Virus record (IMG/VR): IMGVR_UViG_3300049846_000621 | Location: 1-37,869 of that record | Source of the DNA: a virus | Direction: 5' to 3' (one strand) | Length of the DNA stretch: 37,869 nt | Shown: piece by piece, positions 10,149 through 37,869 of the stretch | How the letters are laid out: the number at the start of each line of letters is the position of its first letter | How positions within the stretch are numbered: the first letter of the stretch is position 1 | The notes under the pieces: generated by a model | Told to the model about the DNA's origin: nothing | The model's input: only the letters and a program-made list of their open reading frames with translations | Database searches by the model: none | Position numbers and translations under genes: made by a program

Positions 10149-10430
10149 ATGGCAACAATATCATTTGATATAAGTGACGAGAAAGCAACAGAGTTGTGTG
10201 AGATATTCCAATTAAGACTAAACTATCAAGGAGATATTTCAACTCTCGCTAAGAAAAAACAATTCGTACAAAAAGCAATCCAAAGAGAAATGCTACTACT
10301 TATCCAAGCCTACAGAAATGAAAAGGCTCAGATAGCAGTCAAGCAAGAAGTGGTAGCCGACCCTGAGTTCACCGAGAACCCACTAGACATAGAACTTAAG
10401 GCTCAACAACCGTTGCAACCACAAGCATAA
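10149..10430 (+). CDS. Hypothetical helical protein before portal
   Basis: 93 aa after AAAGGAG. Starts MATISFDISDEKATELCEIF and is mostly helical, with KKKQFVQKAIQREMLLLI, then an acidic, Pro/Gln-rich tail. It resembles small virion or accessory proteins, but no specific family is recognised. A possible promoter for the portal gene overlaps its 3' end. Confidence 0.6.
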   Translation: MATISFDISDEKATELCEIFQLRLNYQGDISTLAKKKQFVQKAIQREMLLLIQAYRNEKAQIAVKQEVVADPEFTENPLDIELKAQQPLQPQA

Positions 10431-24108: not shown

Positions 24109-24531
24109 ATGGCAACCAGAAAAACGGTCAAAGAGATACTCAATCTGTACACTCGTCGGAACAAGGACGCTTGTTGGGAGTGGACTGGTTATAAGTCTAA
24201 AGTTGGGTACGGAAGTCTTACTAATAAAGGTAAGGTTCAACGAGCACACAGATTCATTTACGAACAGCTTGTAGGTGCTATACCAGACGGGATGGTTCTT
24301 GACCATCTTTGTACAAACAAAGCCTGTGTTAATCCAGACCACCTAGAGCCAGTGACAATACTAGAAAACACACAAAGATTCAACAAAACAAGAACTCATT
24401 GCAAAAATGGTCATGAATTTACTCTCGCAAATACCTACACGCCACCAAAGAGGCTTGACCGCCGATATTGCAGAACATGCCAGTACCAAAGAGTTGCAGA
24501 TTATAAACTTAGACTACAGGGAGGATATTAA
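24109..24531 (+). CDS. Free-standing HNH endonuclease (HNH_3 type)
   Basis: 140 aa after AAGGA. CWEWTGYKSKVGYGSL and AHRFIYEQLVGAIPDG lead to the core LDHLCTNKACVNPDHLE, where the DH, N and H residues form the metal-binding site. A C-terminal zinc region follows (HCKNGHEF, then YCRTCQ). This architecture is typical of phage homing nucleases. It sits between the giant internal protein and a lectin-like tail gene. Confidence 0.88.
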   Translation: MATRKTVKEILNLYTRRNKDACWEWTGYKSKVGYGSLTNKGKVQRAHRFIYEQLVGAIPDGMVLDHLCTNKACVNPDHLEPVTILENTQRFNKTRTHCKNGHEFTLANTYTPPKRLDRRYCRTCQYQRVADYKLRLQGGY

Positions 24532-33626: not shown

Positions 33627-33999
33627 GATTAGTAGCCTCTATCTTCTTAACACTGATATGAGTCTGAATAGTGGTTATAACACTATCACACCTCTTTATA
33701 TATCCTCTGAGTCGTTCTACCTCGCCCTCGGCTTTTATAAGCTCTTCGTCAAACCTCATAGCCTCGGCGGCAGGGGAGCGTTTGATCCCTTCTTTAAGGA
33801 GTTCATCATACTTTTTGGCTCTCTTCAGTTTGAAGTTAATCTCAGCTTCCGAAGCTTGTTCTGCTAGTTTAGTAAGATAGATTGCAATACGAGCGATTGT
33901 TTCGGATAAGATGTGCATTTCTACTAAGTGGACTTCCCCGTCCCTCTTAACGAGCATTTCCATCTCTAACCTATTAATCTCTTGTATTAGCTTGTCCAT
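33619..33999 (-). CDS. Coiled-coil protein of the replication module
   Basis: 126 aa, starting in TAATG overlap with the SSB-like gene. Helical throughout (IQEINRLEMEMLVKRDGEV, then LKRAKKYDELLKEGIKRS). Similar proteins of about this length often sit beside phage SSB and helicase genes. Possibly a recombination or replication accessory. No enzymatic motif. Confidence 0.6.
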   Translation of the reverse strand: MDKLIQEINRLEMEMLVKRDGEVHLVEMHILSETIARIAIYLTKLAEQASEAEINFKLKRAKKYDELLKEGIKRSPAAEAMRFDEELIKAEGEVERLRGYIKRCDSVITTIQTHISVKKIEATNLA

Positions 34000-34385
34000 T
34001 ATGAGAATAGTGCGTTAATGTCTTCTATATCTGTGTCACTGACAGGCTTGTTATCAGATTCTTTTCGCTCACGAACTGGGTTAATGTAATATCTAATCTC
34101 CATACCCGTTTGGCCGTTAGACTTTACGGTGTACGATTTACCAACCACATCAGCCTGACCACCTTCGGACACTCCTTCAAGCATACTCGCAAACTGGCTC
34201 GAACTTACATCGAGTGAACCCTTGTCGGTGGTTATCCCGTAAATCTTTCTGAAGTCTTTTTCATATTCGTCACTTACTAACATCTTGTTAGCTTCGGGGT
34301 CCCACTTCTTCCACTTAAACCCCCACACCTTTTCAACAGTAAACTCACCATCGATTAAGTCTTTTAGTTTAATATATTCTGCCAT
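33999..34385 (-). CDS. Probable single-stranded DNA-binding protein
   Basis: 128 aa with a beta-rich body (ADVVGKSYTVKSNGQTGMEI) and a C-terminus that is acidic and ends in a hydrophobic tip (DIEDINALFS), as in SSBs, where the tip recruits partner proteins. It sits between helicase-module genes and the PD-(D/E)XK nuclease. OB-fold is inferred rather than seen, so the call is moderate. Confidence 0.5.
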   Translation of the reverse strand: MAEYIKLKDLIDGEFTVEKVWGFKWKKWDPEANKMLVSDEYEKDFRKIYGITTDKGSLDVSSSQFASMLEGVSEGGQADVVGKSYTVKSNGQTGMEIRYYINPVRERKESDNKPVSDTDIEDINALFS

Positions 34386-34668: not shown

Positions 34669-35482
34669 ATAATTCCCCCCCACAACATCGTGTGCCTAAT
34701 TTATATCCTGTTTTAGTTGCTACTTGTTCTGTTTGGTAATAACAGAACTTCATCGGTGTGCCGTCAAACTCTTGACAAGTACAATCGGGCATGTCTTCAC
34801 TAGCGTAGGCTTTGTTCCAGCGAGTAACGTAGTAAAGAATCTTTGCAGCTGTTTGTTGAGTAGGCTTCCAAGTGAAATCCCTTCTGACTACTCCATCATC
34901 TAAAGCATAACTGAATAAGTTACACAATTCTGGTAGTGGTAGTTTATTCTCTTTGAACCATTCTGGGTTCTTCTGAGCCAACATGTAGTAGGTTTCGACC
35001 TGTAACTGATATTTGAACCACATATAGTCTTCAAAGGCCTCTCTGGCGGTCAGAGGCACATAAGCGAATGACTTACCCATACTTGTTTTAGCATCTGAGA
35101 TTAAAACCTTGCCATCTATCTTTAATAAAAGGTCGGGCGTTCCACAGACTCTTTTTAAGTCCTTACCCATTTCAAACTTGACTGACTGGTTAGGAGTATC
35201 ATCCCGCCAGTGCCACAGTAACTTACCATCTTCTTTAAGTTGTTCGGCTATGGTGTTCTCAAATACTCGGCCATGAAGCATCCGCTGAAGTTTGCCCCAA
35301 CCTAACGGAATAGGTGGTTTAACGTTCTTTCGGTACTTTAACCAAACTACTCTCGGACAGTCCAACATACTTGAAGGCGTTGCACAGTCTTGTTCTCTTT
35401 CGGGTTGTTTAGCGTGCCAATTAGCTATCGCATCATTAATAGGACTGTCAGCTATGTGATTCGCCCAAGCGCTACTGTACAT
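34652..35482 (-). CDS. PD-(D/E)XK nuclease, Cas4/AddB-like
   Basis: 276 aa. Active-site pattern: Glu75 (GRVFE), Asp117 (CGTPD), Asp130-x-Lys132 (ISDAKT) and Gln161 (QVETYY), as in exonucleases of the Cas4/RecB superfamily. Cys42 (DCPRVVW), then Cys234/Cys236 (CTC) and Cys247 are placed as in the four-Cys iron-sulphur cluster of Cas4/AddB. It probably resects DNA ends for recombination or replication. It overlaps both neighbours, so it belongs to the replication operon. Confidence 0.8.
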   Translation of the reverse strand: MYSSAWANHIADSPINDAIANWHAKQPEREQDCATPSSMLDCPRVVWLKYRKNVKPPIPLGWGKLQRMLHGRVFENTIAEQLKEDGKLLWHWRDDTPNQSVKFEMGKDLKRVCGTPDLLLKIDGKVLISDAKTSMGKSFAYVPLTAREAFEDYMWFKYQLQVETYYMLAQKNPEWFKENKLPLPELCNLFSYALDDGVVRRDFTWKPTQQTAAKILYYVTRWNKAYASEDMPDCTCQEFDGTPMKFCYYQTEQVATKTGYKLGTRCCGGELYETTK

Positions 35483-35645
35483 CTTCAGCCTCTTTGTTGC
35501 CTCGCTTGAGTTTGATTAACTCAGCGGTGGTTAAGATTGCGTCTTCATACACTTCATCAGGTATAACCATCGCTCTATCCCTGGCTACGTCTATGACTAT
35601 AGTTTCGTTGTCGGTGTCTATTATAATATTCTTTAACTTACCCAT
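35472..35645 (-). CDS. Small hypothetical protein, first gene of the replication operon
   Basis: 57 aa with AAGGGGAC upstream. The start (MGKLKNIIIDTDNETIVIDV) is beta-rich, and TTAELIKLKRGNKEAEDVQ follows. It overlaps the nuclease gene by 11 bp and lies right behind the promoter at 35671-35699. Function unknown. Confidence 0.6.
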   Translation of the reverse strand: MGKLKNIIIDTDNETIVIDVARDRAMVIPDEVYEDAILTTAELIKLKRGNKEAEDVQ

Positions 35646-35670
35646 TCTTGTCCCCTTATTTAATGATTCT

Positions 35671-35699
35671 AGTGTAGCGTAAGCTTAGTCCAAAGTCAA
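35671..35699 (-). promoter_or_regulatory. Promoter with TAAGCTTA element for the replication operon
   Basis: On the minus strand TTGACT (35694-35699), 17 bp, then TACACT (-10 at 35671-35676). TAAGCTTA lies at the same distance from the -10 as in the promoters at 32026 and 37220. First gene starts at 35645. Confidence 0.78.
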
Positions 35700-35707
35700 G
35701 CTTAATC

Positions 35708-35736
35708 TTGACAGAATTATCCACAAGCAGTATGTT
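35708..35736 (+). promoter_or_regulatory. Forward promoter with DnaA box in the spacer
   Basis: TTGACA (35708-35713), 17 bp, TATGTT (35731-35736). The spacer contains a perfect TTATCCACA. A short transcript would run from about 35743 to the terminator at 35784-35807. It is back-to-back with the replication operon promoter. Confidence 0.6.
35717..35725 (+). promoter_or_regulatory. Perfect DnaA box
   Basis: TTATCCACA is the consensus 9-mer of bacterial DnaA. Only one perfect copy was noticed; a one-mismatch copy (TGTGGACAA) lies at 29633-29641. It lies between the -35 and -10 of a forward promoter, so DnaA could act on transcription or mark an origin. Confidence 0.6.
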
Positions 35737-35742
35737 CTGTGT

Positions 35743-35807
35743 GGTAGCAATACCCAAACATCGTCCCCACCACGTGTTTGTATAGCCCTCTCTTTAGGGG
35801 GCTTTTT
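35743..35807 (+). ncRNA. Predicted small RNA 1
   Basis: About 65 nt between the forward promoter (35708-35736) and an intrinsic terminator. It has no open frame. The region includes a short 5' pairing option (GGTA-GCAA-TACC across its start) and the terminator hairpin at its end. Start position is estimated from the -10. No RNA family recognised. Confidence 0.45.
35784..35807 (+). terminator. Intrinsic terminator
   Basis: AGCCCTC (35784-35790), loop TCTTTA, GGGGGCT (35797-35803), then TTTT. One pair is G-U in plus-strand RNA but a mismatch in the other, so it works in the plus direction. Confidence 0.8.
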
Positions 35808-35820
35808 AAATTAAAAGTGT

Positions 35821-35848
35821 TTGACAAATAATCATAGTTTGATATGTT
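35821..35848 (+). promoter_or_regulatory. Second forward promoter in the gene-free block
   Basis: TTGACA (35821-35826), 16 bp, TGA-TATGTT (-10 at 35843-35848, extended -10). Expected start near 35855. No gene with a ribosome site follows, so a non-coding transcript is likely. Confidence 0.6.
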
Positions 35849-35863
35849 TGTAGTAAGCTGTTT

Positions 35864-35930
35864 GTTTCGCAATGGACAGCCCACATAAAAGAAAGAACCC
35901 CTTTCGGGGCTCTCTTGTTCGTTTCGCAAT
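35864..35930. repeat. Direct repeat GTTTCGCAAT flanking a terminator hairpin
   Basis: Exact copies at 35864-35873 and 35921-35930, 57 bp apart, with one-mismatch similarity continuing to about 15 bp (TGTTTGTTTCGCAAT against TGTTCGTTTCGCAAT). The first copy would be near the 5' end of the forward transcript, the second at the 5' end of the reverse one. Confidence 0.75.
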
Positions 35931-35931
35931 T
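35887..35931 (-). ncRNA. Predicted small RNA 2 (reverse) with terminator
   Basis: About 45 nt from the promoter at 35938-35966. It begins with ATTGCGAAAC (35930-35921), unpaired, then a terminator: AGAGCCCC (35913-35906), tetraloop GAAA, GGGGTTCT (35901-35894), then TTCTTTT. The G-U pair in the stem shows that the hairpin is optimal on the minus strand. The layout of a short unpaired 5' seed plus terminator is typical of a trans-acting or antisense small RNA. It would also end transcripts from the early operon at 37220. Confidence 0.5.
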
Positions 35932-35937
35932 ACCTAT

Positions 35938-35966
35938 AACTTAGCAAATGGAATCTTTTATGTCAA
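35938..35966 (-). promoter_or_regulatory. Reverse promoter for small RNA 2
   Basis: On the minus strand TTGACA (35961-35966), 17 bp, TGC-TAAGTT (-10 at 35938-35943). The extended -10 matches the other minus-strand promoters but TAAGCTTA is absent. Confidence 0.6.
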
Positions 35967-35970
35967 GGGG

Positions 35971-36291
35971 AATATTCTTAGAGAGGTGCAACTCCTCAAA
36001 TTCACTCCCTTATCAACTTCTGACACAGGCATACTTGGTTGTGAACAGGACAGAGTGAAGAGAATATTTTCGGAACAACACTAGGGGATGTCCGACTGTG
36101 TACTTCGACAACGGGGAATAACACAGCTCTCTCTACTTCACCAGAATGGTCTGGGGGGTAGGGGGGGCTGTACCTTCTTCTTCCGAAGAATAAACATTTT
36201 TATAAAGATACTGAGCGTTAGCGAAGTCATCTAGTTCCCCCCTCGATTAGCGAGAGGGGGGTTAGGGGGGAGAGGGAAAAGAAAGAACTCT
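35971..36291. other. Gene-free block with consecutive stems and G-tracts
   Basis: No credible gene. Perfect pairings, in order: AATATTCT (35971-35978) with AGAATATT (36061-36068), enclosing GAGG/CCTC (35983/35994) and TTCACTC/GAGTGAA (36001-36007/36053-36059) with an inner CTG-CACA stem; TCGGA-CA/TG-TCCGA (36070-36077/36089-36095); CTGTGT/ACACAG (36096-36101/36121-36126). Farther right are TTCTTC/GAAGAA near 36177-36190, CCCCCC/GGGGGG (36237-36242/36256-36261) and G runs at 36153-36167 and 36256-36276. It could be a structured RNA on either strand, an origin, or both. Confidence 0.6.
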
Positions 36292-36450
36292 CTAAGAAGA
36301 ATAACTGTTTAGAATAAACAATAAAGCTTCTAAATCATTACTATGAATAGCTTCATTTATTTTAATTGTTAAGTCTATATCACTGTCCCCGATTGTTTCT
36401 AGTAACTCGTAAGCTCTCTCTAATAGGTCTGTATTACTCGACATCATCAT
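36292..36450 (-). CDS. Small helical hypothetical protein
   Basis: 52 aa from ATG 36450; ATGs at 36447 and 36444 are equally possible and an upstream ATG at 36486 lacks support. Repeating helices (NTDLLERAYELLETIGDSDI and NDLEALLFILNSYSS). It overlaps the previous gene by 17 bp. Last gene before the gene-free block. Function unknown. Confidence 0.5.
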   Translation of the reverse strand: MMMSSNTDLLERAYELLETIGDSDIDLTIKINEAIHSNDLEALLFILNSYSS

Positions 36451-36667
36451 ACCCAGAATATCCGTTAATAAAGTTATAGTAATCATTCACAATATCCCGA
36501 ACTTGTCCACCACAAGTAGCGCACACTCGACAGTCTTTCCAAGTTTTTAAGTTACAAGGTACCTGAGGATTCATAAAATCAGGTCCGCACTTACACTCAC
36601 CTAATCCATCTACCTTAACTGTCTCACTAAACACACTTGATATGTCGTACTCTACTGGTATCTTCAT
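36434..36667 (-). CDS. Six-cysteine zinc protein
   Basis: 77 aa. Cys at 25, 27, 38, 46, 49 and 52 (ECKCG, then CNLKTWKDCRVCATCGG) should bind one or two zinc ions. ATGA overlap with the gene before it. Early operon position suggests a regulator or host-directed protein, but no family is recognised. Confidence 0.6.
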   Translation of the reverse strand: MKIPVEYDISSVFSETVKVDGLGECKCGPDFMNPQVPCNLKTWKDCRVCATCGGQVRDIVNDYYNFINGYSGYDDVE

Positions 36668-37017
36668 TGTATCGTGCCTACAGTGTTGTGGTTGTAAAAG
36701 CTGCCCTGTAGTTCGTTGGCTGTTACTGTTGGCTGTAAGAAAGTGTAGTGCTTCTGGTATTGCATGTAGTTACCAACTGTCGTAGGTTGTAAGGTTTCGT
36801 GCACAGTTATTTCGTCTTCAGCATAGAATGTTTGAGGCTGTAAATCTTTTGAGGTGCTGTTAACTACTCTCAAACTATTAGAACCGCTCACAACGTCTGT
36901 CTGTTCCTCTACCATCTTATTTATCTCACTAATCATGTAAGCACTTCCGCCAACAATAGTTACTAACACTATTACCCAAATTATAATTAAACTCTTCACA
37001 ATAAACCTGCTTTCCAT
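36664..37017 (-). CDS. Membrane-anchored protein with LQP repeats
   Basis: 117 aa from ATG 37017, or 111 aa from GTG 36999, which overlaps the TGA of the small gene before it. One N-terminal membrane segment (LIIIWVIVLVTIVGGSAYMI), then a polar domain expected outside the cell, with LQPQTFYAEDEI, LQPTTVGNYMQYQ and LQPTVTANE forming a loose repeat. It has the topology of a signal-anchored protein. A role in superinfection exclusion or envelope change is possible but unproven. Confidence 0.6.
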   Translation of the reverse strand: MESRFIVKSLIIIWVIVLVTIVGGSAYMISEINKMVEEQTDVVSGSNSLRVVNSTSKDLQPQTFYAEDEITVHETLQPTTVGNYMQYQKHYTFLQPTVTANELQGSFYNHNTVGTIQ

Positions 37018-37219: not shown

Positions 37220-37249
37220 ATTGTAGCATAAGCTTAGATGATAAGTCAA
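37220..37249 (-). promoter_or_regulatory. Main early minus-strand promoter with TAAGCTTA element
   Basis: On the minus strand TTGACT (37244-37249), 18 bp, TGC-TACAAT (-10 at 37220-37225). TAAGCTTA is present upstream of the -10. Its -35 lies 5 bp from that of the divergent plus promoter, so one regulator could control both. Confidence 0.8.
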
Positions 37250-37664: not shown

Positions 37665-37869
37665 ATGAGTAAGACAATAAAAGCGGACGTAAAACTAACG
37701 GCTAAACAAAAAGCTTTCGCCGATAATCTTATAAACAACCCTAAAATGTCACCTACACAATCAGCACTGCAAACCTATGGTAAGCCAGACAAGCCAACAA
37801 CCTATGGTTCAGCCCAACAAATCGCGCACGAGAACTTAACCAAACCTAACATACAGATATATCTTAATA
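37665..37869 (+). CDS. terS: Terminase small subunit, N-terminal part
   Basis: 68 codons to the window end, starting MSKTIKADVKLTAKQKAFAD. The pattern LTAKQKAFADNLI, then AQQIAHENLTKPNIQIYL is a typical TerS helix-turn-helix DNA-binding region. It recognises the packaging site. The gene continues at 1-192 when the shared CTTAATA is merged (129 aa in total). The upstream AAAGAAG is a weak ribosome site 13 nt from the ATG. Confidence 0.85.
   Translation, partial: MSKTIKADVKLTAKQKAFADNLINNPKMSPTQSALQTYGKPDKPTTYGSAQQIAHENLTKPNIQIYLN

Follow-up and report, generated by a model that had tools for sequence, protein, structure and literature searches.

A gene-free block with a DnaA box between divergent promoters is a putative transcription control region in an uncultivated phage

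Results

Gene order around the block and in related phages

The window, by which we mean the whole stretch of DNA analysed, is a virus record of 37869 bp. Its first seven bases (1-7, CTTAATA) are repeated at 37863-37869, and a terminase small-subunit-like frame runs on across the join; this terminal repeat and the continuous frame make it probable that the record is circular and complete. Up to ~29.5 kb the structural genes point rightward; from 37017 the early and replication genes point leftward. Within the leftward early cluster lies a gene-free block of 646 bp (35646-36291), the longest gap between credible genes in the genome. It adjoins the replication operon, as an earlier note on this DNA had stated, which comprises a 54-aa ORF, a PDDEXK nuclease, a helicase and NinG.

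The comparison set consisted of viral contigs with a related portal. The closest annotated relative is MW202497 (W01; helicase 45%, portal 53%). Two portal relatives at 97% identity and one at 75% are known from fragments that stop short of the early region. The PDDEXK nuclease of the window has no detectable sequence similarity to that of the relatives and was placed by gene order and a weak PD-(D/E)XK match; behind it, the genes for the 126-aa protein, helicase and NinG can be recognised as orthologues of the relatives' genes. Used as a query against viral contigs, the nuclease returned zero relatives, and a profile search of genome contigs with the helicase alignment retrieved only ~30% identical helicases, in bacterial contigs. 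An SSB gene stands upstream of the PDDEXK gene in W01 and in two other relatives, G009 and G012, and is absent from that position in the window. Further along the window, at 33999-34385 on the minus strand, a 128-aa protein whose C-terminal tail is acidic is a possible SSB substitute; it had no family matches at useful E-values. Two observations on the relatives may be recorded here. G009 carries a tRNA with anticodon UCA beside a tRNA-Met (locus L052, 11041-11192), a possible sign of UGA recoding in this phage or its host, and in G003 (locus L055, 12300-14000) long non-coding stretches include a tRNA-Met and two DnaA boxes, gave no Rfam matches and possibly hold more structured RNAs.

The ORFs within the block have codon scores of -0.04 to -0.57 bits per codon, like spurious ORFs; known small genes score mostly 0 to +0.3, two listed small ORFs outside the block being negative as well. 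Searches of the two longest block ORFs against PHROGs, and of the plus-strand one against Pfam, gave zero matches. The 70-aa ORFs in the block were rejected as genes on the codon scores and these family searches. The region had no DNA match in the phage collection, the block alone as a query gave just short terminator-like matches in phages and plasmids, and pattern searches of viral contigs found no relatives, whether the pattern came from the edge of the block, from the core of the early promoters or from the hairpin near 36210-36230. The window had no Rfam match at gathering score, and matches at E 0.45 (the best sub-threshold value) and above were dismissed as chance level. The earlier note had described a gene-free block of ~590 bp; the absence of genes stood up to these searches, and the limits had to be widened to those given above.

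Divergent promoters, opposed terminators and a predicted short RNA

Seven sigma-70-like pairs were counted in 35200-36700, against 3.2 +/- 1.9 expected from shuffles. Four of them are in the block area, at 35708-35736, 35821-35848 and (weak) 35805-35832 on the plus strand and at 35699-35671 on the minus strand. The last of these, P- (35671-35699; TTGACT-17-TACACT), is the predicted promoter of the leftward replication operon, with a start predicted near 35664. P- lacks the extended -10 TG that the promoters of the relatives have, and its core, GCTTGACW...TAAGCTTAYGCTA, is also that of two more leftward promoters, at 37249 and 32055. Its spacer contains the palindrome TAAGCTTA (35680-35687), all three genome copies of which lie inside leftward promoters (37249, 35699 and 32055); this suggests a possible shared operator where a repressor or activator of the phage would bind. 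P+1 (35708-35736, plus strand; TTGACA-17-TATGTT) stands back to back with P- and is followed by the terminator T+. A second rightward promoter-like site, P+2 (35821-35848, plus strand; TTGACA-16-TATGTT), is less secure and may be fortuitous, since its -10 shares bases with the 30-nt gene remnant described below. The genome's best promoter, a perfect leftward consensus (TTGACA-17-TATAAT), is located elsewhere, at 30599-30571 on the minus strand.

Intrinsic terminators in the block exceed those in shuffles. In a whole-genome scan, T+ and T- were the best two intrinsic terminators of the genome and, a shorter nested reading aside, the only two with at least five G-C pairs; they point in opposite directions. 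T+ (35784-35808, plus strand) has a stem at 35784-35803 that, through G-U pairs, is fully paired only as plus-strand RNA with a U-tail, and is predicted to act rightward only. T- (35883-35963, minus strand) combines a stem at 35915-35892, whose G-U pairs complete it only as minus-strand RNA, with an outer 10-bp stem, and is the predicted end of the upstream early operon. The predicted product of P+1, RNA1 (35743-35808, plus strand), is 66 nt long and consists of three adjoining hairpins, the last being the terminator T+ (MFE -21.7 kcal/mol, z -3.5). P+1 and T+ form the sole promoter-terminator unit of the genome, and 30 dinucleotide-shuffled genomes contained 0 such units. Thus the promoter-like pairs of the earlier note were recovered, P- lying partly beyond the limits it had drawn, and so were its two terminators with opposite G-U directions.

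A match in G003 to 35779-35806 was rejected as an RNA1 homologue because what matches is the terminator. In G009 (loci L052-L054), strong promoters at 10202, 36543, 37083, 37240 and 39389 are followed by intrinsic terminators within 160 nt; judged by their sequences, these pairs are perhaps attenuators or small RNA genes.

RNA folding and a gene remnant

The block as a whole folds with z = -5.0 on the plus strand and -4.5 on the minus strand, so that the stems and G-tracts to which the earlier note had drawn attention are real. The strongest fold windows are 36120-36239 (plus strand, z -4.7) and 35800-35999 (minus strand, z -3.1 to -3.9), where the genome background is -0.25 +/- 1.2. The former falls within a G-rich, strongly structured zone at 36080-36290 on the plus strand, with hairpins at 36122-36171 and 36236-36261 (z -4.7 as plus-strand RNA), for which no matches were found in Rfam or in the relatives. 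The idea that this zone is a dispersed bacterial repeat was dropped, no copies having been found in viral contigs, fetched loci or papers, though bacterial genomes may have some.

A stretch of 30 nt at 35838-35867 on the minus strand is identical at 26 positions to a 143-aa gene of G009, which fills the corresponding slot in that phage; the remnant is on the same relative strand. It aligned with a score of 40; 400 shuffles reached at most 29, and the next best place in G009 scored 28. On account of this remnant in the same slot, part of the block is likely to be a scar of gene loss. All in all, the gene-free block is real and most likely regulatory.

A DnaA box at a fixed distance from early promoters

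The block contains an exact DnaA box, TTATCCACA (35717-35725, plus strand), in agreement with the perfect box seen earlier, which lies between the -35 and -10 of P+1 and precedes the -35 hexamer of P- by 17 nt. It is the sole exact copy in the genome of a consensus that we assumed and that may not be the host's. By composition ~0.4 copies per genome are expected, so the mere presence of one copy is unremarkable.

The position of the box is conserved in relatives. In the window, W01 (6708), G001 (106) and G003 (6837), the box precedes the promoter of the operon of PDDEXK nuclease, small gene W_8710, helicase and NinG, at 17, 18, 17 and 17 nt from the -35 respectively. The arrangement, an exact box at a fixed distance from a sigma-70 promoter and conserved at the orthologous promoter, is that which a DnaA-regulated promoter would have. 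Beyond it, none of the relatives found carries the rest of the block.

We then counted boxes over 25 related records, window included (620.6 kb), some of which are related to one another. TTATCCACA ranked first among 1680 9-mers of the same composition, with 40 sites; the mean was 5.7 and the runner-up had 24. More than half of the 40 sites lie under long open frames; outside such frames there were 15 non-coding boxes versus 0.88 expected per control word. An extended -10 (TGNTANNNT) was found 34-42 nt from seven of the non-coding boxes versus 0.42 expected (P ~3e-7), a value that is optimistic because the test was picked after inspecting the same boxes and the records are related; the sample (n=15) is small. 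The box-promoter spacing at orthologous promoters is evidence independent of that test. As in the window, a single box lies between divergent promoters in G001 (36924), G012 (5799, where it precedes an SSB-PDDEXK cluster), W01 (3885) and G010 (14732). The orientation of TTATCCACA differs between relatives, and G009 and G002 have no exact copy.

Alternative roles of the block

The earlier note had considered the block a replication origin and/or an RNA-based copy or timing control module. At an origin, DnaA on the box would open nearby AT-rich DNA and the phage helicase would be loaded; the exact box does adjoin the replication operon, and at the block's right edge, from 36281, begins the genome's 100-bp stretch of highest A+T. 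However, the block holds one exact box and no other within one mismatch, with no array and no iterons. The cumulative GC skew, which the note itself had named as a check, has its minimum at 363 and its maximum at 24295, both outside the block, although skew here also tracks gene direction and counts as supporting evidence, not as proof. Furthermore, relatives carry several single boxes per genome, scattered far apart, many of them beside promoters and often between divergent ones. Because related genomes have several boxes, often between divergent promoters, a promoter element fits better, and we regard an origin as unlikely.

It also seems improbable that RNA1 is an antisense or trans-acting RNA on the replication operon, controlling copy number or timing like the counter-transcribed RNAs of plasmids. 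A compact 66-nt RNA with its own predicted promoter and terminator, adjoining that operon, would suit such a role, and the C-rich loop of RNA1, GUCCCC, complements the ribosome site GGGGAC of the 54-aa ORF. Yet RNA1 lies upstream of P-, without the overlap with the operon leader that marks a counter-transcribed RNA, and its predicted pairing with the start of the 54-aa ORF is unexceptional among 48 gene starts. A search for antisense targets gave nothing convincing: no gene lies opposite 35743-35808, and exact complements elsewhere reach 11 nt at most. None of the relatives found has RNA1. The note's proposal of RNA copy control is therefore weakened, whereas that of timing control gains from a promoter and terminator cluster that heads the replication operon and from the conserved position of the DnaA box.

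Alternatively, RNA1 could be a leader with T+ as an attenuator or antitermination target, read-through giving a long structured rightward RNA to ~36290. The relatives also have promoters followed by terminators within 160 nt, several of them in G009, and the plus strand downstream is strongly structured; against this, no antitermination factor or site was identified and no plus-direction gene lies downstream before the leftward ORFs, which makes a leader quite unlikely. That the whole block is decayed DNA, a scar of lost genes (the relatives' 143-aa gene and SSB) with functionless stems, is very unlikely despite the remnant and the coding sequence found at that place in relatives, given the conserved box-promoter spacing and the terminators and fold energies above chance, and decay may be true for part of the block, P+2 included.

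Discussion

On balance, we think it probable that the block controls transcription at the junction of two early operons, both leftward, and that host DnaA regulates its divergent promoters. The parts of the block, their spacing and the order of box, promoter and operon in relatives are read from the sequence; from these we infer promoter and terminator function, DnaA binding and the direction of the DnaA effect. T- would halt RNA polymerase that has transcribed the first early operon (37017 to 36292), and P- would restart transcription for the replication operon (54-aa ORF, PDDEXK nuclease, helicase and NinG). As T- separates the two operons, P- and DnaA, not read-through, would set the level of the replication proteins. 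P+1, back to back with P-, would yield the 66-nt RNA terminating at T+. One DnaA box would work for both promoters, and host DnaA bound to it would most likely raise P- and lower P+1, so that the host initiator and the expression of the phage's replication genes would be coupled.

The proposed directions follow from the position of the box. Class I activators such as CRP at lac bind a single site near -60, on the upstream side of a sigma-70 promoter. The box has its centre near -58 of P-, which matches the position of such activators, and this is the sole basis on which activation of P- is proposed over repression; blocking of P+1 is proposed because the box lies between its -35 and -10. The window thus has, like lac, a single site centred near -60, but here the site is a DnaA box, found in either orientation across phages, and contact with RNA polymerase would be hypothetical.

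Studies of how DnaA controls phage promoters have, to our knowledge, dealt mainly with lambda, and searching the open literature for phage promoters with DnaA boxes turned up nothing relevant to the present arrangement. DnaA is an established transcription activator or repressor and acts on the lambda replication promoters (PMC8203912). Two DnaA sites of lambda lie downstream of pO, the promoter from which the short OOP RNA is made in the direction opposite to the replication operon (PMC3985674). The window is like pR/ori-lambda in that predicted host DnaA sites lie beside promoters for phage replication genes (PMC8203912, PMC3985674), and P+1 and T+ predict a short terminated RNA opposite the replication operon, by a DnaA box, as OOP is (PMC3985674). 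In contrast to the DnaA-protected sites downstream of pO, the window has one exact box 17 nt upstream of a -35, and this box recurs at several promoters across the phage group. OOP is antisense to the cII part of the pR transcript, whereas RNA1, with its own predicted promoter and terminator, diverges from the replication promoter, overlaps no gene and is not antisense to a cII-like regulator. The window would accordingly resemble lambda in outline, and we do not claim that it belongs to the lambda system.

A bolder proposal, which we hold to be doubtful, is that one host DnaA box toggles divergent promoters across the phage group and that here it gates a new structured RNA, of 66 nt and perhaps with a longer rightward one of several hundred nt, controlling early transcription or replication. 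If host DnaA does control these promoters, a group of uncultivated phages would sense its level or state at early promoters, by way of a single fixed box, and the timing of the phage would be tied to the host cell cycle.
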